Source of the DNA: Dicyema japonicum
Lineage: Eukaryota > Dicyemida > Rhombozoa > Dicyemidae
Length of the DNA stretch: 64,000 nucleotides
NCBI GenBank assembly: GCA_011109175.1
Contig: RDEW01000008.1
Span: 129,228-193,227 of the forward strand
Reading direction: 5' to 3'
Part shown: positions 2,413 to 60,530 of the stretch, in pieces
Position numbering within the stretch: the first letter of the stretch is position 1
Layout: each line of letters starts with the position of its first letter
Position numbers and translations under genes: made by a program
The notes under the pieces: generated by a model
The model's database searches: none
Seen by the model: the letters and a program-made list of their open reading frames with translations, nothing else
Told to the model about the DNA's origin: nothing

Positions 2413-3000
2413 TCAGTTCGGCTCCAGGTTTATAGTTACTTCCTGAGGGATATGATCACTCCCTATGTCCCAAAGTAATCTTGGTCTGTCTACATGATCA
2501 AACAGTTGTGGAGATACTAATCCAAGCATGTCACCGCCATAGTGTGAGAAATGGTTAGGTTCCTCAGACGTCAAGACTTCAACTCCAATTTCGCTAACCA
2601 GATCTGCTAGGAGTCGACCGTCCCCGTTGTTTTTGCAACATCCGTAGCTCGTAGCATTCAGGTCTCCTACCAAGATCGACATAGGGTTTGTTTCTAAAAA
2701 TTGAACAATTTTCGCAGAAGATCGGTCCAAGTCCTTAGAGTATATCCCTCCCACGCTTATCCATGTTCCTCCACATTGTATATCGATGGACACGAATTCC
2801 GAAAATTGTTTGCAATTCTTTACGAAAAAAAGATCGAGGTTCCAGTTCCAGTCACTGCTCCATCTATCCATGGAATATCCACAGAGTCATATCCTTCCAT
2901 ATTATACTTTCTTCAGTGTTTGATTTTCGTTTCGTTAACTACCAAGACATCCACTTTGGCATTACTCACAAGTAGCGCTAGTTCATCATGCACTTTCACC
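2413..3000 (-). pseudogene. LINE-J ORF2, APE-type endonuclease part
   Basis: This is the apurinic-type endonuclease domain that nicks target DNA for LINE-J. On the minus strand it begins with VDVLVVNETKI (the VNETK element, about 2940-2990). It continues through GDLNATSYGC, which carries the metal-binding D-N pair, and ends with DIGSDHIP, where SDH is the terminal catalytic triad. A stop follows the NETK motif, so the first 40 or so residues are out of register with the 152-residue main block. It lies directly upstream of the RT part (660-2400) and downstream of the zinc-knuckle ORF1. Confidence 0.85.
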
Positions 3001-4990: not shown

Positions 4991-5596
4991 ATGAAGAGAA
5001 AACAATCAACTTGTGGAGTTTGTGAGAATACTAAGAATAACGAAGCAACCTTGACTTGCTGTGGCTGCAAAATAATCTGTAAGAAAACCAATATAATCCC
5101 CAGATCACACAAAATGCGTAAATTACTCCCACAATGGTGGAGATCTGACGAACTGGTTATGCTTAAATTGTAAGACCTGCATCATCTGCAACGAAAATAT
5201 TAATTTGGGAGAATTTTTAATCTGTATAATTTGTGACCTCGGATTCCACACAGAATGTCTCGATCCCTCGTTAAAAAAATATCCAGGGACCATGGCGATG
5301 TTCCTCGTGCATTGAAGTAAAGTCAGAAAAGAAAACCGAAAAATTGAAATATTCCCAATGGTCCGTGCTGGACGTAGCAAACTGGGTAACCAAACTGGGA
5401 TTTCCTGAAGTGGCTCAACAGTTTGTGACAAAAGTGAGGCTTATGTGGACTGTAGGGAGTCGATGGACTTGCATTGATTTGTCTGACAAGGGAGGATGTC
5501 CTCGTTGATATGGATATTCTGCTTGGACCAGCTCTTGTTATTTACGATGAAATTCAGTGGCTTCAAAAAAGACTGATTTTTACAGATAAAAAATAA
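4991..5596 (+). CDS. Tandem PHD-finger and SAM-domain protein, host gene with ultra-short introns
   Basis: Probable chromatin reader: tandem PHD fingers of the MOZ/DPF type bind histone H3 tails, and SAM domains mediate protein association. Exons are 4991-5078, 5104-5433 and 5456-5596, about 185 residues. The start ATG opens MKRKQSTCGVC. PHD1 has CGVC, CCGC, then YHTKC, restored only after splicing, then WLCLNC. PHD2 follows at once with CKTCIICN, CIICDLGFHTEC and PWRCSSC. The SAM domain runs from WSVLDVANWVTKLGF through VDGLALICLTREDV to LLGPALVIYDEIQWLQ, ending at TAA. One break remains: a one-base surplus near the A7 run at 5273-5279, between HTEC and PWRC, possibly a consensus error. The tight match to both folds argues for a functional gene. 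It could also be a recent pseudogene or the 3' end of a longer gene, since an AT-rich stretch ending TTCAG precedes the ATG. Confidence 0.8.
5079..5103 (+). other. Intron of 25 nt in the PHD-SAM gene
   Basis: It starts GTAAGAAAAC and ends ATCCCCAG. Left in place, the frame runs on as nonsense and PHD1 loses its H-x2-C ligand pair. Removed, codon phase is kept (ATC T|AT CAC) and YHTKC followed by WLCLNC appears at the right spacing for a PHD finger. This is the strongest intron call in the window. Confidence 0.85.
5434..5455 (+). other. Intron of 22 nt in the PHD-SAM gene
   Basis: It starts GTGAGGCTTA and ends GGACTGTAG. Removal joins QQFVTK to GVDGLALICLTREDV in phase 0. That restores the F-x4-(I/V)DG spacing usual in SAM domains of the SAMD1/SAMD13 type. 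Retained, the frame meets a stop. It is among the shortest spliceosomal introns one could propose for an animal. Confidence 0.8.
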
Positions 5597-5629: not shown

Positions 5630-5912
5630 AAGATACTAGGAATTGGGGGAATATATTACTTTGCCATCAAATTTCACTAATAAATTATACCAATGTGGTA
5701 GTGTGATGTATCTGTTGAGGAAAAAAAGAAATGTGGACATGAACACTCGGGAGTGCTCACCCTGTAACCACATCAACGTGCGAAAAAAAAGTTTCTCTTG
5801 TACAGGCTGCGGAAACTTATTTAATCTCGACTGTCTCAGACTTTCCCAAGCATACACAAATCAGATATCGCTGTTCCTGTCTTGGTCAGAGGGATTCCTT
5901 GTGACAAACTGA
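5630..5912 (+). pseudogene. PHD-like zinc-finger fragment
   Basis: An open stretch just downstream of the PHD-SAM gene encodes CSPCNHINVRKKSFSC, CTGC and FNLDC. This is the first two-thirds of a PHD-like finger with the usual histidine replaced by asparagine. The last ligand pair can be seen only in the next frame (YRCSC at about 5868-5882). It may be a decayed paralogue or further exon of the neighbouring gene, or the N-terminal finger of a LINE ORF1. No ATG near its start is convincing. Confidence 0.4.
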
Positions 5913-10580: not shown

Positions 10581-10720
10581 TAATGTTGTTAGCGTGGTGT
10601 CATTGGCTCACCAGAAATAATGTCACCCATTCCGAAAAGGAACGAAAAGAGCAACAGCTTCTCCCCACCGTCCGGTGGTCCTCTCAACTTGTATGTCTTC
10701 GACCTATCTGATGTCGCCAT

Positions 10721-11460
10721 TTGTCCAGACTTCTGATTCTTTTATGTGGAGACGTCGAAACCAATCCTGGGCCATGGAGAGATTTGGCAATTATTCAACT
10801 GAATACGAATGGGATCAGGAGGAAAATCTTTGAACTCCGGGCACTCCTCCGCGAAAATGGGGCTGATCTCGCTTTAATACAGGAGTCCAAGCTATCTACT
10901 TCCACACCAACACCCTTTTTTCCCGGATACACAGTGATCCATAAAGATGGTCTAAGAGGACGCGGAGGAGGACTACTTACTATTATAAAGAACGATATTC
11001 CCTTTATAGATACAACTCAACGAACCTCAGAGCTAATTGGCACCGACAAGACTTTGGAGCAGATTACTGTCGAAATCGAGTTATTCCCGTCCTTTTGGAT
11101 CCATTTGGCTAATTTATATATTCCTCCACAAGGATCGTGTCCGACATCTTACATCCCTGATTTATCACGCATTTCAAAATCTATTGTTATGTATGGATCT
11201 TAATGCACGACATCCAGTTTGGCTCATTTCTCAATCCTCTGATAACCGAGGAGAACTCATTGCAAATTATTTTCCTGACCTTATTATACTGAACAACCCT
11301 AACTCACATACGAGGACTCCATTAAGGATGACTGATAGCTGCACATCCCCCGACTTAACATTATGCTCACCTTCACTGGGTGGACAACAACACAACACTT
11401 TCCTGGAACTTCTTTTACGGTTTCTCCCGTGACCACAATCCAATCCTTTTAAAATTGAGA
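10721..11460 (+). pseudogene. LINE-P copy 1: 2A peptide and APE endonuclease
   Basis: LLILLCGDVETNPGP (10730-10774) is a canonical 2A ribosome-skipping sequence (D-V/I-E-x-N-P-G-P). At such a sequence the ribosome releases the upstream peptide at the Gly-Pro junction and continues. The endonuclease starts straight after it: IIQLNTNGIRRK, ADLALIQESKL (catalytic E), GLRGRGGGL, then MDLNARHPVW in a second frame (from about 11190) and FSRDHNPILLKL in a third (about 11426-11461). A TGA at 10709-10711 and a one-base deletion close the leader upstream of the 2A; in the second copy the same position is an open Trp codon. The copy cannot make the full product. Confidence 0.85.
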
Positions 11461-17570: not shown

Positions 17571-18884
17571 TATCCTGATCACATTAAAAAAACGCACTTT
17601 ATAAATTTTAAAATCAGATTGATAAAATTATAGACTTTGTTATTTAAAATGTGTAAATTTAAATTAATATTGAAAAACTATTTAATACTTGGGTTATATT
17701 GGTTAAAGTGATTTATCGCTTATAGTGAAGCAAAATCAGATTTTGTTTGATTTCACTATTAACGCTTTACATCAGGTATTTCAAAACTTGATGTTTGATC
17801 ACAATTGTTATATTTTGCGTTTTGGAGCGTTACCATATTATTCCCGTTGTAGTAGGCTTGCAAATTAATAAATAAACTTCAATAAGATTAAGATTTTTCA
17901 GATTCGTCAGTGCGGCTTCGCATAAAGCCTTTTGAGTTTTACATACCTGCTCACACTGTATATGAACAGTAGACGACGGAATACAGTCAGAAATTATATT
18001 TTGGTGACGATTTATGTGGAATAAGGAAGTATCTAAAACCGGTATTTCATATCAAGTTATTTCTATCAAAACATTAAAAAAAACGACATATTTCTATCGG
18101 AGTCGTGCTCAAATGATTTTTTGCGTAATCCAAAAAAGACAAGTTTTATAACCTCCAAGTCTAGTTGGAACCAAGGGAAGAATAAATATCCAGTTTTGCA
18201 GCTGTGAAAATCCCTCCACATGTGTCTGTTATTATATTACGAAACGACGGACTATAAAGGTGGTACACGAAGTTTACTTAAATTACTGAATTTCACTTGT
18301 CCACAGATTAGCAATTGAATATTACACTCCCCGTTTGTTGATAACCGATTTACTTCGGAGACTGACTAGCCACTCGATATTCTTTTAGAAGATGGGGTAA
18401 CTCTCAAAAAGTCCTAAAGCCAATAAGATCATTTTTTCTCTGACTATTGGACATCATCTCCCGTTTTGCTAGAGTAATGAATTTATACCAAAGTGATCTT
18501 TCATTAATAGGGAAACCATAAGTCAACTGAAGTTATTTGTTTAATTTGATTGTAAAAATGATATTAAGAAATATATTTTAATAACTTGAGGTTTTCGATG
18601 TATTCTGAGTCCATCAGTGGGATCTATAAGTAGCAAAAAGAGTCAAGTACCACGGAGGCATCAAAAAAGGATCAGTCGGTTTTCCGACTTGATTGGATCA
18701 TTCGCTGATGACGTTCTCACCGACATGGTTCTGGATGGACAATTCTACTGTGGGAGATTCTTCCAAATTATTTCATTTTAAGTAATAAGTATTCGAACTC
18801 GGTCACGGAAAGGAGTCTCTCGCTACCACCATGAAGACCAACATTCGTTCTTTTTTGGGAGGTATCCACATTCCCAGTTGTCCT

Positions 18885-19215
18885 ATGGCTTCTAACTGTA
18901 CGAGGGAGACACGTTGTCAGAACTAAGAAGTCGAAGTGCTCCGTCTCAAGAGAACTGTTCGGTTAAAGTTAATCGAAGGTGGTATCTGCGCAGTCATCAG
19001 GGCACTTTCCTTGAGTAGACCACAAAAACCGACTCCATACGCCTATTTTTACTGACAACAAGGATCCACTGCCACCTCAAAATTTACGCCAGTCGCTCCC
19101 AATCAGGAGTGAGTCCTCTGATTGCATCAAACGATGAACTTATCCTCGCAATACGGAATTTTGTCCCTAGTAGTGGCGGGCTCGACGGAATGAGACCTGG
19201 TTACCTAAGGATCTA
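18885..19215 (+). pseudogene. LINE-A RT N-terminal piece, array unit 1
   Basis: This corresponds to the open 111-codon piece at 20501-20836 in unit 2, but is broken here by an early stop, a small indel near 19045 and a base loss near 19088. The end of the piece still reads LILAIRNFVPSSGGLDGMRP, a motif common before the fingers of this RT family. Confidence 0.7.
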
Positions 19216-19464
19216 ACCTCTTTATCCGTAGAAGGCCCCGCATATGCAACACTCAAAGAAACAATTTTTTATAGTTAGTCTTTTCCAGTCTGAAGTGTCG
19301 ATCTAGGTCGTATTAAATTACACTAAATGTGAAATCTACAATTGCGGATTTTCAGAAAAAAAGTATTCAAAAGCTTTGTCATGCTTTGGAAAATTACTGC
19401 CTGCAAGTATTTCCACACCCTATAAAAAATTATATTCCTCGGATCCCCAATCACCATAAATCTA

Positions 19465-20004
19465 ATGGGAAGAGCTATGCGTGAAAATCGATTGTTATTC
19501 GGAAAGACTCTGGATCGCTTGTGTCTACTTGACATGCATACAGCATTATTCCTCCTGAAAAATAGTCTCAACGTACAGAGGCTTGCATATGTCCTGAGGA
19601 CTGCTTCCTATTTCACCCAGTGTGACCAACTCGCAAAGATTAACGAGATCTCCCTTACGGCAGTGGAACGTATCTTAAACGTCCGGTTCAAGGATTACTC
19701 ATGGAAGAAAGCCACGCAGCCAGTGAGACTAGGAGGACTTGGAATTCGGAACCCTGTGGACCTTTCTCTCCCTTCATACCTATCATCGCTAATGGCCTGT
19801 AACTCACATGTCAAGAGGATTCTACACTCTCTACCTGAATTCTCTATTGACAAGTACGCCGGCCATGCTTGTGAGGCTTGGAACCGCACTTATCAGCTTT
19901 CCCTGTTTTCATCGTTCTCTCAGCGAGACGATACTATTTGCTGGAAATTATTCAAAGATTTGCTAGTGTCACCTAGCCAACATCGCCGTGCCTGTTTGTT
20001 GTAG
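19465..20004 (+). pseudogene. LINE-A RT thumb piece, array unit 1
   Basis: An open 179-codon frame starts MGRAMRENRLLFGKTLDRL. It contains FLLKNSLNVQRLAYVLRTA, PVRLGGLGIRNPVDLSL and LPSYLSSLMACNSHVKRIL. These are thumb-region motifs after the catalytic palm, so alone it has no polymerase activity. It ends at a stop (HRRACLL) where the intact family continues into the C-terminal nuclease-like domain. It is identical to the unit 2 copy. Confidence 0.8.
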
Positions 20005-20500
20005 GGAGCGTATTCCGAGAGCGGTGCCTGGGTCAACGCCATTTCCAATGGAGTTCTGGGTACCTTCCTGGATTATGAATGCGTCCGTATTAGGATCTCA
20101 TTACGACTGGGATTATAAGTCGTGTTCCACATCAATAAGTCAAGTGAAGTTATTTGTTTAATTTGATTGTAAAATAATATTAAGAAATATATTTTAATAA
20201 CTTGAGGTTTTCGATGTATTCTGAGTCCATCAGTGGGATCTATAAGTAGCAAAAAGAGTCAAGTACCACGAAGGCATCAAAAAAGGATCAGTCGGTTTTC
20301 CCGACTTGATTGGATCATTCGCTGATGACGTTCTCACCGACATGGTTCTGGATGGACAATTCTACTGTGGGAGATTCTTCCAAATTATTTCATTTTAAGT
20401 AATAAGTATTCGAACTCGGTCACGGAAAGGAGTCTCTCGCTACCACCATGAAGACCAACATTCGTTCTTTTTTGATGGTATCCACATTCCCAGTTGTCCT

Positions 20501-20836
20501 ATGGCTTCTAACTGTACGAGGGAGACACGTTGTCAGAACGAAGAAGTCGAAGTGCTCCGTCTCAAGAGAACTGTTCGGTTAAAGTTAATCGAAGGTGGTA
20601 CCTGCGCAATCATCAGGGCACTTTCCTTGAGTAGACCACAAAAACCGACTCCATACGCCTACAATATTTTACTGAACAAGGATCCACTGCCACCTCAAAA
20701 TTTACGCCAAGTCGCTCCCCAATCAGGAGTGAGTCCCCTGATTGCATCAAACGATGAACTTATCCTCGCAATACGGAATTTTGTCCCTAGTAGTGGCGGG
20801 CTCGACGGAATGAGACCTGGTTACCTAAGGATCTAA
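20501..20836 (+). pseudogene. LINE-A RT N-terminal piece, array unit 2
   Basis: The open frame MASNCTRETRCQNEEVEVLR runs to GLDGMRPGYLRI and a stop. One base shift later the same strand reads LTSLSVEGPAYATLKETI, the expected continuation, so the stop is a frameshift artefact of decay. An overlapping ATG at 20449 opens a short hydrophobic frame (MKTNIRSFLMVSTF). Catalytic residues are absent. Confidence 0.75.
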
Positions 20837-21083
20837 CCTCTTTATCCGTAGAAGGCCCCGCATATGCAACACTCAAAGAAACAATTTTTATAGTTAGTCT
20901 TTTCCAGTCTGAAGTGTCGATCTAGGTCGTATTAAATTACACTAAATGTGAAATCTACAATTGCGGATTTTCAGAAAAAAAGTATTCAAAAGCTTTGTCA
21001 TGCTTTGGAAAATTACTGCCTGCAAGTATTTCCACACCCTATAAAAAATTATATTCCTCGGATCCCCAATCACCATAAATCTA

Positions 21084-21623
21084 ATGGGAAGAGCTATGCG
21101 TGAAAATCGATTGTTATTCGGAAAGACTCTGGATCGCTTGTGTCTACTTGACATGCATACAGCATTATTCCTCCTGAAAAATAGTCTCAACGTACAGAGG
21201 CTTGCATATGTCCTGAGGACTGCTTCCTATTTCACCCAGTGTGACCAACTCGCAAAGATTAACGAGATCTCCCTTACGGCAGTGGAACGTATCTTAAACG
21301 TCCGGTTCAAGGATTACTCATGGAAGAAAGCCACGCAGCCAGTGAGACTAGGAGGACTTGGAATTCGGAACCCTGTGGACCTTTCTCTCCCTTCATACCT
21401 ATCATCGCTAATGGCCTGTAACTCACATGTCAAGAGGATTCTACACTCTCTACCTGAATTCTCTATTGACAAGTACGCCGGCCATGCTTGTGAGGCTTGG
21501 AACCGCACTTATCAGCTTTCCCTGTTTTCATCGTTCTCTCAGCGAGACGATACTATTTGCTGGAAATTATTCAAAGATTTGCTAGTGTCACCTAGCCAAC
21601 ATCGCCGTGCCTGTTTGTTGTAG
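21084..21623 (+). pseudogene. LINE-A RT thumb piece, array unit 2
   Basis: Same 179-codon thumb frame as 19465-20004, with no differences seen at protein level. Directly upstream (20942-21083) the same domain continues in other frames (CFGKLLPASISTPY). The junction scar lies just before that, at about 20906-20929. Confidence 0.8.
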
Positions 21624-22121
21624 GGAGCGTATTCCGAGAGCGGTGCCTGGGTCAACGCCATTTCCAATGGAGTTCTGGGTACCTTCCTGGATTATGAATG
21701 CGTCCGTATTAGGATCTCATTACGACTGGGATTATAAGTCGTGTTCCACATCAATAAGTCAAGTGAAGTTATTTGTTTAATTTGATTGTAAAAATGATAT
21801 TAAGAAATATATTTTAATAACTTGAGGTTTTCGATGTATTCTGAGTCCATCAGTGGGATCTATAAGTAGCAAAAAAGAGTCAAGTACCACGAAGGCATCA
21901 AAAAAGGATCAGTCGGTTTTCCCGACTTGATTGGATCATTCGCTGATGACGTTCTCACCGACATGGTTCTGGATGGACAATTCTACTGTGGGAGATTCTT
22001 CCAAATTATTTCATTTTAAGTAATAAGTATTCGAACTCGGTCACGGAAAGGAGTCTCTCGCTACCACCATGAAGACCAACATTCGTTCTTTTTTGATGGT
22101 ATCCACATTCCCAGTTGTCCT

Positions 22122-22457
22122 ATGGCTTCTAACTGTACGAGGGAGACACGTTGTCAGAACGAAGAAGTCGAAGTGCTCCGTCTCAAGAGAACTGTTCGGT
22201 TAAAGTTAATCGAAGGTGGTACCTGCGCAATCATCAGGGCACTTTCCTTGAGTAGACCACGAAAACCGACTCCATACGCCTACAATATTTTACTGAACAA
22301 GGATCCACTGCCACCTCAAAATTTACGCCAAGTCGCTCCCCAATCAGGAGTGAGTCCCCTGATTGCATCAAACGATGAACTTATCCTCGCAATACGGAAT
22401 TTTGTCCCTAGTAGTGGCGGGCTCGACGGAATGAGACCTGGTTACCTAAGGATCTAA
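22122..22457 (+). pseudogene. LINE-A RT N-terminal piece, array unit 3
   Basis: Same 111-codon frame as 20501-20836 with one replacement, RPRKPTPY for RPQKPTPY. This is consistent with a very recent duplication. Confidence 0.75.
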
Positions 22458-22581
22458 CCTCTTTATCCGTAGAAGGCCCCGCATATGCAACACTCAAAGA
22501 AACAATTTTTATAGTTAGTCTTTTCCAGTCTGAAGTGTCGATCTAGGTCGTATTAAATTACACTAAATGTGAAATCTACAA

Positions 22582-23245
22582 TTGCGGATTTTCAGAAAAA
22601 AAGTATTCAAAAGCTTTGTCATGCTTTGGAAAATTACTGCCTGCAAGTATTTCCCACACCCTATAAAAAATTATATTCCTCGGATCCCAATCACCATAAA
22701 TCTAATGGGAAGAGCTATGCGTGAAAATCGATTGTTATTCGGAAAGACTCTGGATCGCTTGTGTCTACTTGACATGCATACAGCATTATTCCTCCTGAAA
22801 AATAGTCTCAACGTACAGAGGCTTGCATATGTCCTGAGGACTGCTTCCTATTTCACCCAGTGTGACCAACTCGCAAAGATTAACGAGATCTCCCTTACGG
22901 CAGTGGAACGTATCTTAAACGTCCGGTTCAAGGATTACTCATGGAAGAAAGCCACGCAGCCAGTGAGACTAGGAGGACTTGGAATTCGGAAACCCTGTGG
23001 ACCTTTCTCTCCCTTCATACCTATCATCGCTAATGGCCTGTAACTCACATGTCAAGAGGATTCTACACTCTCTACCTGAATTCTCTATTGACAAGTACGC
23101 CGGCCATGCTTGTGAGGCTTGGAACCGCACTTATCAGCTTTCCCTGTTTTCATCGTTCTCTCAGCGAGACGATACTATTTGCTGGAAATTATTCAAAGAT
23201 TTGCTAGTGTCACCTAGCCAACATCGCCGTGCCTGTTTGTTGTAG
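22582..23245 (+). pseudogene. LINE-A RT thumb piece, array unit 3
   Basis: A base gained near 22653 and one lost near 22686 extend the open frame upstream (MRIFRKKVFKSFV ... FPHPIKNYIPRIPITINL) into MGRAMREN. A one-base insertion at about 22990 splits the frame, and the rest continues at 22979-23245 to HRRACLL. The other units lack these indels. Confidence 0.75.
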
Positions 23246-23741
23246 GGAGCGTATTCCGAGAGCGGTGCCTGGGTCAACGCCATTTCCAATGGAGTTCTGG
23301 GTACCTTCCTGGATTATGAATGCGTCCGTATTAGGATCTCATTACGACTGGGATTATAAGTCGTGTTCCACATCAATAAGTCAAGTGAAGTTATTTGTTT
23401 AATTTGATTGTAAAAATGATATTAAGAAATATATTTTAATAACTTGAGGTTTTCGATGTATTCTGAGTCCATCAGTGGGATCTATAAGTAGCAAAAAGAG
23501 TCAAGTACCACGAAGGCATCAAAAAAGGATCAGTCGGTTTTCCCGACTTGATTGGATCATTCGCTGATGACGTTCTCACCGACATGGTTCTGGATGGACA
23601 ATTCTACTGTGGGAGATTCTTCCAAATTATTTCATTTTAAGTAATAAGTATTCGAACTCGGTCACGGAAAGGAGTCTCTCGCTACCACCATGAAGACCAA
23701 CATTCGTTCTTTTTTGATGGTATCCACATTCCAGTTGTCCT

Positions 23742-24060
23742 ATGGCTTCTAACTGTACGAGGGAGACACGTTATCAGAACTAAGAAGTCGAAGTGCTCCG
23801 TCTCAAGAGAACTGTTCGGTTAAGTTAATCGAAGGTGGTACCTGCGCAGTCATCAGGGCACTTTCCTTGAGTAGACCACAAAAACCGACTCCATACGCCT
23901 ATAATATTTTACTGAACAAGGATCCACTGCCACCTCAAAATTTACGCCAAGTCGCTCCCCAATCAGGAGTGAGTCCCCTGATTGCATCAAACGATGAACT
24001 TATCCTCGCAATACGGAATTTTGTCCTAGTAGTGGAATGAGACCTGGTTACCTAAGGATC
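23742..24060 (+). pseudogene. LINE-A RT N-terminal piece, partial array unit 4
   Basis: It matches the unit 2 piece but has a base lost near 23820 and about 12 bp lost near 24027, where GGCGGGCTCGAC is absent. It runs straight into LINE-B at 24134. With the segment at 27062-28440 it represents the LINE-A copy that LINE-B disrupted. Confidence 0.7.
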
Positions 24061-24133: not shown

Positions 24134-26935
24134 TCTTCCTCTATCGAATGCGAGTAATCTCAATTCGTCCAGGTCGTCCCCGTCTTTAGATTTTTTTTCA
24201 CACGATTTAGGTCTTTGTTTATGGCAGTCTGAAGTGTCGATCTAGGTCGTCCGCATAAGGGTTTGTCGCAACTGTCAAAGTAATCTTCCATCGCTTTGTT
24301 AGCGGTTGCCTCCGGGTTCATTCTTAGTACATGCCCAAATATCCTCGACCGGACATCTATCACATCCTTGCTGATGTAAAAACACATAAGATACCAGTGG
24401 TTGATATTCTACGTGGCCACTCCATTCCGAGTAAGCTTCTTAGTTGCCTTCTATGGAACAATCCAGTTTCAATAGTTCGTTGAAGGAACTTCCCATGTCC
24501 AGCGTTGTACAGTAGGATCGGTTTCACAAACGCGTTGTAGAGCTTGCATCTGATGTCAATTCCAAGTCCTTTGGCCCTTAGCCATCCTTTCTTCAGTTTA
24601 GCCATTGCCGCATTTGCCAGTGTTTTCCTCCTTAGTACATCTTCAGCGTCTCCTAGTAGAGAGCCGAGCTTATTAGTACGTCTCCATATTTCATAAGTAA
24701 TATTGTCTTCTTTTTTGATTTCCGTAATTTCAGTTTTGTTAACATTTACGCTGAGAAACCATTTCTTAAGCTCCGCAGGTGCATTTTCTAGTAGGTGTTG
24801 GAGTGCGGTCACGTCCCGTGATACAGAAATCCAGATCATCCGCATAAGATGTCTTTCTTCTATGTCTCCTATATAGCATTTACAGAGGTCGCGGAGTGCA
24901 GATTCAAGGTATATGGTGAATAGTAAAAGGGAGAGAGAATCACCCTGGGGTGTCCCAATTGTAGTTTTGAAACTGCGGGAAGTTGCTCCTTCTGTCCTCA
25001 CAGATAGTCTTGTATTCGCAAGTAGTAGTCTGATTATCCTAACCGACGATTTATCCGATATTTGCTCAGCACATTCATCAGTTTCTGTCTGTTTATTGAT
25101 CGAAAGCTCTGGAGAGATCTATTCCCAGCACGGTCGTTGCGCTCTTGAATCTTTGGTGCGTTGCACAGCGCCATCTATGGCTCCATACAATGTCTGCCGT
25201 AGACCTCTTTTTTCGGAACCCACTTTGACTTGCTGGTAGGTATAGCAAGTCAAAGTGGATCCGTTACAACCCTTTATTCCGGCTTAGTGCAATGTTTGCC
25301 AGCACCTTGCTATCGAATTCAGAAGAATATCAGGCGGAGATTTTTTACTGGTTCTTTTGATTTGAATTTTTATGGCCCATATTTTAGGAGCTCAGGGCTT
25401 ATGTCGTCCGGCCCAGCACTCTTGTTGTTCTTCAATTTATTTATTGCTAATTCCACCTCTTCCACTGTGATTGGATTTTTAGCGCCTTTGCTTCTCTTTG
25501 GAAAGGGGGAAAGTCCTTATTTTCTTTATTCAACAGTGTTTCAAAGTGTCGTGCAATCAATTCTGCTTTTTCTTCAGGGTGACCCACTAATTTTCCATAT
25601 TTGTCTTTGATATGATGGGTGTTTTGTCCTTTCTTTGTCTGCAACAGCCGCAAAGCCGCATAATCCTTGAATTGCCTTTTAGGCATTCCACATCTTTTAA
25701 TAGGGATGTAATAATTTCCCGTAAGTGTTTTCTGTTCATTTTTTTGATTTTCCATTTTAGTTCCCTTTGTTGGATATTAAGCTCTTTTTTTTACTCTCGT
25801 CAGACGTGTTTGCTGCTTTTAGCCTTAGCTCTCTGCAATGCTTTGCCAAATCTGGCACGTTCGGGTGATGATCCAATTTTAGGGCGTGATGATTTCGGAC
25901 TCCAAGGCATATATTGGCCGACTTGGAGATTGCCTGTTTTGTTTGATCCCACAGAGTTCGTACTGATGATTCCGGTGCGGTTTTCACATAAGAGTCTCGA
26001 TTTGTTCGTGATATTTAGCTCTACAAGTTGGCTCTAACCACAATTTTTCTGTCTGAAAGTATATATTGGGTCTTTGTCTCGCCTTCTTCGCGTTTTCAAT
26101 GTATTTTTTCCCAGTCAGGTGCTTTTTTACACAAAGTTTTGCGATGACGATCCTGTGGTCGCTGTCAGTTGTTGTTCCCTTGTAGAAACGTACCTCATTT
26201 AACAGGTGTTTATCAGACTTTCGGCAGATAATGTAATCGATTTGATTATATATTTACGGTCTCCCTGACGGAGTTTTTTCTTTGTCCGTGCCACGTCGTC
26301 TTGTGGCAACCTGAGTACGTGAGAGCCGTGTTACACAGGAAAAGGCTATTTGTATAGCAGAAGTTCACCACAAAGGCTCCAGATGCATTTCTCCTTCCGT
26401 GCCCGTGTCTTTCAACAGAGGATTCTTCGAGCCCCATTCGCATTCCGGCCTTTGCATTCATATCTCCCGCAACAAAGACAAGGACAAAGAAAAATTATTA
26501 GAGTATGTGCTTGATTGTTCTGAATAGAATTCCTCGAGCTCACGGGGTTCTTGATTAATCGTCCACAGAGTGGTGCATAGACATTTATGACAGTTAATAG
26601 ACTCTTGGACGGGCATAGTTCATTTAGTTTGACTTGTAGGACACATATTCGGTCGTTGACTCTTTAATAGCAATGTAATCTTTTTGAGGTAATCCACGTG
26701 TAAGGCAAATCCCATGCCGTAGTGCTAGCAATTAGTTGGGAAGAGAATCAGTCGGTAGTTGTTTCATATCTCATCGCGTCCATTTTCGATTTTCGTCTCT
26801 TGTAGGCAGCCAATAGATATTTTTTATTTCTCGAGATCGTCACAAAGTACTTTCCTTGTCCAATCTTTCGATATTCCACGTACGTTGAACGTCATTAGCC
26901 TGAGTTCTCGATTGTATGATGAGTGTTTTTAGACA
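24134..26935 (-). mobile_element. LINE-B copy inserted in LINE-A, APE-type non-LTR element
   Basis: On the minus strand it opens near 26895 with MTFNVRGISKDWTRK and CLQETK (endonuclease start). The mid-endonuclease follows at 26246-26461 (MNAKAG, LFLCNTALTYSGCHKTTW), then a linker (25447-25990), then RT (24360-25001) with GTPQGDSLSLLLFTIYLE. The catalytic YADDLDF is readable at about 24830-24848 one frame off. The C-terminus is FGHVLRMNP (about 24313-24345) and GRPRSTLQTAINKDLN. Stops and shifts occur throughout. The flanks are LINE-A on both sides. The palm of LINE-A is missing between them, so insertion came with, or was followed by, loss of about 0.6 kb of host element (estimated from domain content). 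Confidence 0.85.
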
Positions 26936-35639: not shown

Positions 35640-37770
35640 TAACCAAATGAAAACACCTTCCAATAAAAAGCAGGCGCAATATGATATCCAATTATTACAT
35701 GACAAGTCAACTTAACAAAAATATGCGTATCAACTAAATCTTGAACTTAATGATGTCGACGAAACTAAACCTGTTCATATTATTTGGGACAAAGTCACAA
35801 AGTCGATAAAAGGTACAGCATGTGATGTGTTGGGAAGTATTACAAAACCCCGTAAATTTTACAATCATGATATTTGCGTCCTATCAGTAAACCAGAAAGC
35901 CTTGAATTGAAGATAGAAAACTCAAGGTCTCCAGAAAAGGCCAAGGAACTTCGGCAACAACGAAACCGAACATTACTAAAAATCAAGCAAACTCAGAAAT
36001 CCCTAACAACTAAAGAAATAGAAAAACAAATTGAAGAAATTGAAAAATATAAAGATGGAGTGAAAATGTTCAAAGCTATTCAATTAATTAATAAGAAAAA
36101 GAGTGCAAGCCCCATAATAATCAATGACATCCTTGGCAGAATAATTATCGATGAAAACGACAAAGCAGCTACTATATCCGCTTATTACTATCATATGCTC
36201 AACTGGGACAACGAAAGAGGCTATAAATTTGGTACACAAGTCAAGCATGGTTTGGACATCCCAATAAACACACAAAACACTGGATGCAATTAAAAAATTG
36301 AAAAATGACAGATCGGCAGGACCAGAGAATATCCCAGCCGAACTTATAAAGTATGCCCCAGTGAAGTTGGTAACAATCATTACCAATATACTCAACAAAA
36401 TATTTGAAGAAAACACTAGTTAGACATTGGCAAGGGTTGGTTAATTCCACTGCAAAAACTGGGAAAACCCAAAGGGCCCCTTTCCAACCTAAGACCAATC
36501 ATCCTACTAACTACGCTGCGAAAAATCTTGTCAATCATTACATTGGAAAGAATCAAAGACAAGGTGGAGTATTTTCTGTCACCAGGACAAAGTGGTTTCC
36601 GGTCAGGCAGATCCACTGCCGATGTCATTTGGACACACAGATGGTCAAGTGCTCTATGCCAAAAATATAAAAAGTGCATAGATGTTCTCGGAATAGACAT
36701 GTCCAGAGCGTTTGACTCAGTTCATAGAGGCAAACTTCTTGAAGTACTCACAAGCTTCCTAACAACGGATGATGTCAAAATTATACAAAAACTACTGCAG
36801 AATACGCAACTAGCAACCAAACTCGGAAAAACTACTTCAGAATTCTTTTATACTTCACGTGGAATTCCGCAAGGAGACTCTTTGTCACCAGTTCTATTCA
36901 TAATCTACCTGGAGGCTGCACTGAGAGATTTCAGGCCTTTAATTGAGAACAACAAAATAATCGAGTTAATATATGCAGACGATCTTGACTTTGTTTCTGA
37001 GGATGTTGAAATTCTTCATCACGTTCTCAAAAACTTACCAAATGCTTTTTCTAAATGGTTCTTAGTTATCAATCAGGACAAAACTGAATATACAAAACTT
37101 GTACGAGTTGTACGCACTTACGATGAATCATGGAGAAAACATAAAAAAGTTGGTTCACTACTTGGAGACTCAGAAGATGTTCCCCACAGAAAAATCCTTT
37201 CCACTGCTGCATATAAAAAATTCTTAACTATCTGGCGTTCTAAGAAGAGCATAACTACGAATACAAAGCTAAAATTGTATAAAACATTCGTGGTTCCAGT
37301 CCTGATATACAACTGTGGGACATGGGGACTACGAAACGGGAAATAGACAATCTGGATCAATTTCATAGAAATCAACTAAGAAACATCTTGAGAATACATT
37401 TCCCGAAAAAGATATCAAATTCAGAACTGTAAAAAAGATGTGGCTTAAGGCCATTATCAGAGGAGATTCTCAAGGCTAGGTGGAGACTTTTTGGTCACAT
37501 CTTACGAATGGATATGTTGACTCCACCAAACATTGCAATGGAGAACTATTTCGCACAACTGAAGGATCCTTCCGTGCCAGGCCTAGAGTGACGTTGCCTT
37601 CAGTACTAAATGATGACCTAATCCGAATAAACAAATCTCTACGAAATGGTGAAGATTTTGACTCACTACGAGCAATGGCCAGGAACAGGGGAACATGGAA
37701 GAGGATGTGTGGAAGGATACGGACGTGGAACTTAATTAATCTAATTAATTTTTGATTTCCCGGGAGTGCT
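35640..37770 (+). pseudogene. LINE-B reverse transcriptase and C-terminal domain
   Basis: The best RT reading frame of the window is 36528-37346. It contains FLSPGQSGFRSGRSTADVIW, GIDMSRAFDSVHRGKLLE, SRGIPQGDSLSPVLFIIYLE and an intact catalytic LIYADDLDFV, then WFLVINQDKTEYTKL and KVGSLLGDSEDVPHRK, ending with LYKTFVVPVLIYNCGTWGL. The linker (35874-36293) is a charged coiled-coil-like stretch (IEKQIEEIEKYKDG, KAIQLINKKKSAS). After a frameshift near 37345 come NQLRNILRIHFPKKISN, RWRLFGHILRMDM and FRARPRVTLPSVLNDDL to about 37750. Several frame changes upstream of 36528 prevent a full product. Confidence 0.9.
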
Positions 37771-58995: not shown

Positions 58996-59499
58996 ATGTT
59001 AGCGTGGTGTCATGTGGCTCACCAGAAACGGTCTCACCCATTCCAAAATGGAACGAAAAGAGCCAACAGCTTCTCCCCACCGTCCGGTGGTCCTCTCATC
59101 TCCTGTGTCTTCGACCCTGTCTGGTGTCCCCATTTATCAAAACTTTTGATTCTTCTATGTGGGGACGTCGAAAACAATCCTGGTCCATGGAGATGTTTTA
59201 CAATTATACAACTGAATACGAATGGGATCAGGAAGAAAATCTTTGAACTCCGGGCACTCCTCCGCGAAAATGAGGCTGACCTCGCTTTAATACAGGAGTC
59301 AAAGCTATCTCCCTCCATACCAACACCCTCTTTTCCCGGATGGTTTCCTCCGCGTAGGTCCACCGCTACATACTTGGCTACCCTATCGCAGTTCATTGCC
59401 GATGGTTTTAACACCCATCCCCCGTTTCACAAACCACAATCTTGGTTTCTATTGACATCAACAAAGCTTTTGACATTGTTTCGAGAAAAATCCTGGTAG
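58996..59499 (+). pseudogene. LINE-P copy 2: leader, 2A peptide and fused endonuclease-RT remnant
   Basis: An ATG at 58996 opens a 64-residue leader that ends LLILLCGDVENNPGP (Gly63-Pro64, codons to 59187), a canonical 2A skipping site. The leader is Ser/Pro-rich with a short hydrophobic end. The endonuclease then starts (IIQLNTNGIRKKIF, LALIQESKL) and after FPGW jumps to RSTATYLATLSQFIADGF of the RT. By family knowledge the ribosome would release the leader and restart at Pro64. This copy shows that the 2A lies at the N-terminus of the retrotransposon ORF rather than between two enzymes. Confidence 0.85.
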
Positions 59500-60530
59500 G
59501 AAAAATATTTTCTACTAATATTCGTCCGAATGTGAAATTATGGCTTGCCAACTTTTTGTCTGGAAGACGTGGAAGAGTAGTCAGTGGTGATCTCAGATCT
59601 AGATCACGATTACTACCGAACGGGGTACCACAGGGGTCTCCACTTTCACCAATTCTATTCAACTTATTCCTACACGACAAACCTAATGATGGAGACGAAG
59701 ATTCCCTCCTATTTTCCTACGCAGACGATGTAGTCATTGCATTACGGAACCGTTCGACGCAAGTCACATCTTTAAAAACTCAGACAAAATTGAACATTCT
59801 CCACGATTGGATTGTTGGCAATCGACTAACGATTTCTGCAACCAAGTCTATCTGTTCCACATTCATGTCGGACCGTCGTTCAATGATGAACCGAGTCTTT
59901 TCATTGGTCCCACTCGGATTCCAGTGACAAGGTCCCCCACTGTTTTTGGAGTCAAGTACGACAGCCTTCTCAAATTCAACTCCCACGCAACAGACATGAT
60001 CACCAGGGGCCTCCAGAAAGCTAACGTTATACGCGCCCTTGTCCGGAGGACCACGAGGAACATGGACTTTTCCGTTTCTACTCTCTACCAACAAACAATC
60101 GCGCCTGCCATTGAGTATGCCTCCGTTGCATGAAGATTCGGGCTATCGGAGTCTTTGGTCCAAAGAATCAACTCGATATACCGGAAAACAATCAGTATGT
60201 TTTCCCTACGTAATGGATCAACAGTCGACCCACTACTCATGGAAGCTAAGATCCGTAGTCGTGGCTCCGGATTTCTTCGCCTCTGTGAGGAAGATGGAAA
60301 TCCGCTTCGCTTGATCCTTTCCAAGGCAAGAAAAAACCGATTGGATAAAAAATTCCCCTCCCCGATCGGATTCCTCTGCAAGAGCGAGAGAAGGCTCTTC
60401 CGGAAAGTAGTGGGGACGATGGAAGATCACAGACGTCGAATGGCACAAGTGATTGCGAAAACTGGGATCACCTAACTGTATGACGCTTTTGTCTTTCTTT
60501 CTCGGTGTTCCCGGGGTTATTAAAATAAAA
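58997..60530 (+). mobile_element. LINE-P copy 2, internally deleted
   Basis: Starts at GTTAGCGTGGTGTCATG and ends CTCGGTGTTCCCGGGGTTATTAAA plus an A/T-rich tail. The endonuclease is cut after about 45 residues: position 59341 joins the endonuclease start directly to the RT, with a 2-bp AT match at the junction, removing about 1.45 kb present in copy 1. The RT palm and C-terminal domain are better preserved than in copy 1. Confidence 0.85.
59442..60475 (+). pseudogene. LINE-P copy 2: RT palm, thumb and C-terminal domain
   Basis: Frame 59442-59927 carries SIDINKAFDIVSRKILVGK, FLSGRRGRVVSGDLRSRS, NGVPQGSPLSPILFNLF and SYADDVVIAL, all catalytic residues intact. A shift leads to GPTRIPVTRSPTVFGVKYDS and MITRGLQKANVIRALVRRTT (59880-60133). 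A second shift leads to the C-terminal frame 60155-60475: MVQRINSIYRKTISMFSLRN, GSGFLRLCEEDGNPLRLI and the end MAQVIAKTGIT. Only two shifts and no other obvious lesions make this the youngest-looking RT after 36528-37346. Confidence 0.85.

Follow-up and report, generated by a model that had tools for sequence, protein, structure and literature searches.

Two probable introns of 25 and 22 nt in a small PHD-PHD-SAM gene of Dicyema japonicum

Introduction

Are two GT-AG segments of only 25 and 22 nt, each of which breaks a conserved protein domain in the DNA of the dicyemid Dicyema japonicum, genuine spliceosomal introns? The segments lie in a stretch of 64,000 nt (the window), within contig C170 of an assembly of 64.67 Mb in 191 contigs, and a sequence-only reading had already proposed that they are introns in a host gene of the chromatin type. 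Dicyemid mini-introns were reportedly treated by Ogino and co-workers in 2010. That dicyemid introns average about 26 nt, as this reading had stated, agrees with the available text of two sources: Aruga et al., 2007 (PMC2222250) give 26.2 +/- 1.9 nt (n=16) and describe introns at conserved positions in the conserved Zic and Pax6 domains, and Zverkov et al., 2019 (PMC6543705) put the median at 27 nt and some two thirds of introns below 30 nt. We argue, with a probability of roughly 0.9, that the locus is a small host gene whose product has two PHD fingers and a SAM domain like that of SAMD1, and that it carries two ordinary U2-type spliceosomal introns, of 25 nt in phase 1 and 22 nt in phase 0.

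Results

Layout of the gene

The features of the locus, in window coordinates, are as follows.

4991..5596, + strand: whole gene, with three exons, two introns and one frame break
4991..5078, + strand: exon 1, start ATG and first half of PHD finger 1
5079..5103, + strand: intron 1 (predicted), 25 nt, GT-AG, phase 1; GTAAGAAAACCAATATAATCCCCAG
5104..5433, + strand: exon 2, remainder of PHD finger 1, PHD finger 2 and first half of the SAM domain; holds a one-base frame change
about 5257..5292, + strand: stretch in which the frame moves by one base; no GT-AG segment inside it explains the shift
5434..5455, + strand: intron 2 (predicted), 22 nt, GT-AG, phase 0; GTGAGGCTTATGTGGACTGTAG
5456..5596, + strand: exon 3, second half of the SAM domain up to the stop codon TAA

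Both GT-AG segments are present exactly where they had been placed, at 5079-5103 and 5434-5455. Removal of the first joins CGCKI to IYHTKC (...CGCKIIYHTKC...) and restores the H-x2-C ligands of PHD1, while removal of the second joins QQFVTK to GVDGLAL (...QQFVTKGVDG...) and restores the F-x4-VDG spacing of the SAM domain, both as predicted. Excision of the two segments repairs PHD1 and the SAM domain but does not yield a single open frame, for PHD2 retains a single one-base break, which the sequence-only reading had missed, after its H-x2-C (about 5257) and before its W-x-C-x2-C (from 5287). Since neither intron length is divisible by three, retention of either segment would break the frame. 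The initiator methionine and the first cysteine pair are common to all four sister proteins that were aligned with the window protein. A spliced-leader acceptor upstream of the ATG was considered and set aside: the window has CAG directly before the ATG, but only one of five sister genes (L074) is alike in this respect.

Just downstream of the gene, at about 5739-5850, lies a lone PHD-like finger (CSPC...CTGC...NLFNLDC), the frame of which stops soon afterwards and shows no other domain; the finger appears to be the remains of a further member of the PHD-PHD-SAM family. Among the 10 of 68 listed open reading frames that were scanned, reverse-transcriptase fragments (RVT_1) occur at 36420-37343 (+), 59412-59924 (+) and 24360-25115 (-), and endonuclease-like fragments below the Pfam cut-off at 2413-2883 (-) and 10712-11200 (+), so that the gene sits amid broken elements of the non-LTR type. 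The window also contains a tandem array at 18634-24026, with three to four copies of a unit of about 1.62 kb, large parts of which are 100% identical between copies, the outer copies being less so.

Domains of the predicted protein

A Pfam scan of the spliced pieces, of 91 aa (PHD) and 95 aa (SAM), recovered both domain types that had been expected of the spliced product, PHD at 4.9e-14 (in two stretches) and SAM_1 at 7.5e-7, and the shorter unspliced pieces gave no Pfam family for the first (60 aa) and SAM_1 at 0.055 for the second (73 aa). All 16 zinc ligands are kept in a C4HC3 pattern in both fingers, finger 2 spanning the frame break. Among proteins of known structure the PHD pair is related to KMT2D (3.3e-11), KAT6A (8.6e-11) and DPF3 (7.9e-10), KAT6A/B being among the nearest by sequence, and the nearest known structure to the SAM domain by sequence is that of Atherin/SAMD1 (3e-12, over the full length). 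In the Pfam scan the protein of about 185 residues matched zinc-finger and SAM families only, with no MYST, SET or other catalytic domain and no winged helix. To judge by the domain families, the double PHD finger probably reads histone H3 tails and the SAM domain probably oligomerises or docks.

When the genome was searched for PHD fingers, PHD2 was found on its own without splicing (30.9 bits, C170:134405-134512). This search gave at least 144 PHD matches (150 of 397 candidates scored), many of which have identical scores (e.g. 36.7, 32.3 and 32.1 bits) across many contigs; perhaps some repeat or mobile element carries a PHD finger. When the genome was searched for SAM_1, four matches were obtained, and the window gene, the SAM domain of which is split by intron 2, is not among them. 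No homologue at E <= 0.001 was returned for the joined protein (18 candidates) or for an alignment of five members (1283 candidates) from a collection of uncertain animal coverage, a result with no bearing on whether other animals have relatives.

Sister genes share the intron positions

A search of the genome with the window protein uncovered further PHD-PHD-SAM loci, six of which were examined (L072-L077); L078 is the window copy itself, and L079, which was also fetched, aligned poorly and was left out of the family. At the site of intron 1, each of the six sister copies has a GT-AG intron of 27 nt in phase 1, and no empty site occurs among them. At the site of intron 2, a GT-AG intron of 24-25 nt in phase 0 is found in five of the six, and the remaining copy, L073, reads uninterrupted across it. 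When each of the six sister proteins served as reference, the window DNA yielded exactly 5079-5103 and 5434-5455 every time, but these alignments are circular, because the sister proteins were themselves derived from alignments with the window protein. The non-circular test is the run with human KMT2D, KAT6A and SAMD1 as the sole reference, which again gave exactly these two introns in the window, intron 1 in 6/6 sisters and intron 2 in 5/6, with L073 aligned across site 2 without an intron. The six copies are not fully independent, since L072 and L076 are near-identical and lie on one contig.

L073 has an additional 22-nt intron near the place of the frame break in the window gene. A 19-nt intron called in L077 was discarded as a probable frameshift artefact, the KAT6A reference giving a frame break near there instead. 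Comparison of the window gene with each of five relatives shows that third codon positions differ most often; dN/dS for the pair of window gene and L074 is 0.21, while in the other four of the five comparisons it is unreadable because synonymous sites are saturated.

Chance and splice signals

Whether two domain repairs make chance unlikely, as had been argued from the sequence, was examined by replacing each segment in 1000 trials with random window DNA of equal length and realigning the result to the human domain. The aligner placed an intron with precisely the original ends in 0 trials for intron 1 and 4 for intron 2, and the observed score was matched or beaten by any route in 16 and 83 trials, respectively. 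Intron 2 alone is only moderately better than chance (83/1000); the sister genes settle the matter. With L073 as reference and 400 trials each, the score reached the observed value in 2 trials (intron 1) and 28 trials (intron 2), and an intron within 3 nt of both ends was called in 15 and 14.

Splice-site scores, built from the introns of a census of conserved genes (below), are low for both window introns: 0/29 census introns score lower, or 2/29 when each is left out of its own model. They are of no help here: among the chance GT..AG segments of 20-31 nt in the window, 46% equal or exceed the score of intron 1 and 30% that of intron 2. The donors of the window introns are GTAAGA and GTGAGG, which are nearer to the usual animal donor consensus than most census donors. 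The 3' parts of both introns are without the T-rich run common in the census, and the GC content of intron 2 is 50% against a census mean of 25%.

Introns and spliceosome of the genome

The census covered 36 actin, tubulin and HSP70 loci, which were aligned with a custom spliced aligner that allows GT-AG introns of at least 15 nt. Sixteen loci were kept, equal to 14 distinct genes (L022/L032 and L025/L028 are each one gene seen twice); 12 were left out because identity was under 55% or less than 300 residues aligned or, for L015, by name, as were 8 repeat views or exact copies of genes that had been kept. The actin, tubulin and HSP70 genes align to human proteins under the standard code, and 67 homeodomain matches in the genome are in line with an animal. 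Among 30 distinct introns, 29 measure 22-31 nt and one 49 nt, with an overall median of 25 nt, and their uniform GT-AG ends follow from the aligner, which accepts no others. The figure of 29/30 is valid only for well-aligned genes, since the dropped loci hold other intron lengths: a 78-nt intron in an actin-like gene (L005), more short introns (e.g. L018, L027 and L031) and, in poor alignments, many long introns that are apparently aligner artefacts. Three of the 29 short census introns are 22 nt long, so that the 22-nt window intron stands at the lower edge of the range without being alone there.

A branch-point motif YTNAY occurs in 14/29 census introns, its A lying at no constant distance from the 3' end, and only 5/29 have G at +5. 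U2 snRNA has 25 matches in the genome, 22 of them above the cut-off, and the branch-binding GTAGTA is present in all six copies fetched; U6 snRNA has 10 matches, 9 above the cut-off, with ACAGAGA in the one copy fetched. A U12 snRNA match at G000:C68:163471-163599 scores 85.4 bits (Rfam cut-off 53), and the reduced genome may keep a minor spliceosome as well.

The frame break in exon 2

One candidate cause of the break, a GT-AG segment of 17 nt at 5270-5286, was rejected, since 17 is 2 mod 3 and excision puts the reading into the wrong frame. Frame breaks are also present in two sister copies of the six, L076 and L077. Single-base frameshifts are frequent in the well-conserved tubulin, actin and HSP70 genes (e.g. 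L014, G000:C87, and L006, G000:C159), which suggests that the assembly is indel-prone. The census genes hold 18 distinct frameshifts in 14 distinct genes over 7,597 aligned residues (two genes being counted twice in the residues), five of them in one tubulin copy; a base is apparently missing in 14/18, and 4/18 are of the same type as that of the window gene. With 18 frameshifts in conserved genes, one in a gene of about 185 residues is unremarkable. Since similar frameshifts affect conserved genes, assembly error appears to be the likeliest cause, and the break is more likely to reflect such an error than decay.

Discussion

The recurrence of introns at the same positions in sister genes, the clean absence of the second in L073, the 22-31-nt introns of the census and the presence of U2 and U6 genes together sustain the spliceosomal reading that had been put forward from the sequence. 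Most introns of this genome have probably been reduced to 22-31 nt, as the three gene families of the census indicate, and both window introns are probably removed from the pre-mRNA, most likely by the ordinary major spliceosome. Intron 1 would then be older than the split of the seven copies seen, and intron 2 would have been either lost once, in the lineage of L073, or gained once, in the other copies.

The reading of both segments as chance GT..AG strings in non-coding DNA can draw on the sheer number of such strings, as 4476 GT..AG segments of 20-31 nt occur on the two strands of the window. However, the domains are significant and have relatives of solved structure, and six family members share the same or nearly the same exon structure, so that we consider this reading practically untenable. 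A narrower doubt concerns the 22-nt segment, which might be extra coding sequence with a compensating indel rather than an intron, much as the frame is broken nearby by something other than an intron. The weak splice signals of 5434-5455 and the ease with which random DNA reaches the observed score by any route (83/1000) would suit such an origin. Yet at the same codon boundary five of the six sister genes have 24-25 additional nt that begin with GT and end with AG, and L073 has none, and retention would put extra residues into the SAM fold. An origin of the 22-nt segment as coding sequence is therefore very improbable.

The more serious alternative leaves the introns in place. The window gene could be a recently dead family member that inherited real introns, has a genuine frame break and no longer gives the full protein. 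It differs from our preferred reading in the frame break and shares the interpretation of the introns, so that confidence in one overlaps with confidence in the other. The break in exon 2, those in L076 and L077 (2/6 sisters), the low scores of the window introns relative to the census and the lone PHD-like relic at about 5739-5850 are all compatible with a gene in decay. However, all 16 zinc ligands and a full-length SAM match have been kept and differences are concentrated at third codon positions, and the 18 frameshifts in 14 conserved genes make a single one unremarkable, though only 4/18 are of its type. We regard recent death of the gene as unlikely, while giving it far more weight than the other two alternatives.

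The reading of the locus as a small host gene with two U2-type introns invites a broader, more speculative scenario. Perhaps the gene belongs to a family of small PHD-PHD-SAM chromatin readers that is confined to dicyemids and has expanded here to six or seven members at least, and in which introns of 22-27 nt come and go as whole units and are recognised by donors that share hardly any consensus apart from GT. The part on donor consensus is based on the occurrence of G at +5 in 5/29 census introns, despite the ACAGAGA of U6 and the GTAGTA of U2, and if it were true, splice-site choice would depend mainly on intron length and exon context. We put this scenario forward tentatively, as something that is more probably wrong than right. 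The raw sequence does support tiny introns of a narrow size range as a habit of this genome, and in genomes of this kind many genes will be broken up by gene finders that expect longer introns. The part most worth keeping is the small gene family with one intron site that is either filled or empty: with one site at 25 or 27 nt and the other filled or empty, it offers a compact set in which to study how the spliceosome chooses introns of 22-27 nt with weak signals.

The predicted protein resembles the KAT6A/KMT2D/DPF-type double PHD fingers in its tandem fingers, which have the full set of ligands and are joined in a very similar way, and differs from these proteins in having no matched catalytic domain. 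In SAMD1 the SAM domain is coupled to a winged helix, whereas in the window protein it follows two PHD fingers and no winged helix was matched; the SAMD1 winged helix is named in the available text of PMC9908889. As to the introns, short spliceosomal introns are found here as in other dicyemid data, with a census median of 25 nt. In the excerpted text of Lu et al., 2019 (PMC6736024), the D. japonicum genome measures 67.5 Mb with 36.7% GC, against 64.67 Mb here and 37.3% GC for the window only, and its mean intron length of 38.2 nt exceeds the 25 and 22 nt of the window introns, which are also richer in GC than the census mean of their own genome. Assembly size and window GC are consistent with a dicyemid, though not diagnostic of one, and the intron lengths fit as well. 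Since dicyemid mini-introns have been in print since 2007, the window introns are sound but not surprising. Introns of similar or smaller size occur in unrelated organisms, namely in Paramecium (20-35 nt) and in the Bigelowiella nucleomorph (18-21 nt), as quoted in the available text of PMC2222250.
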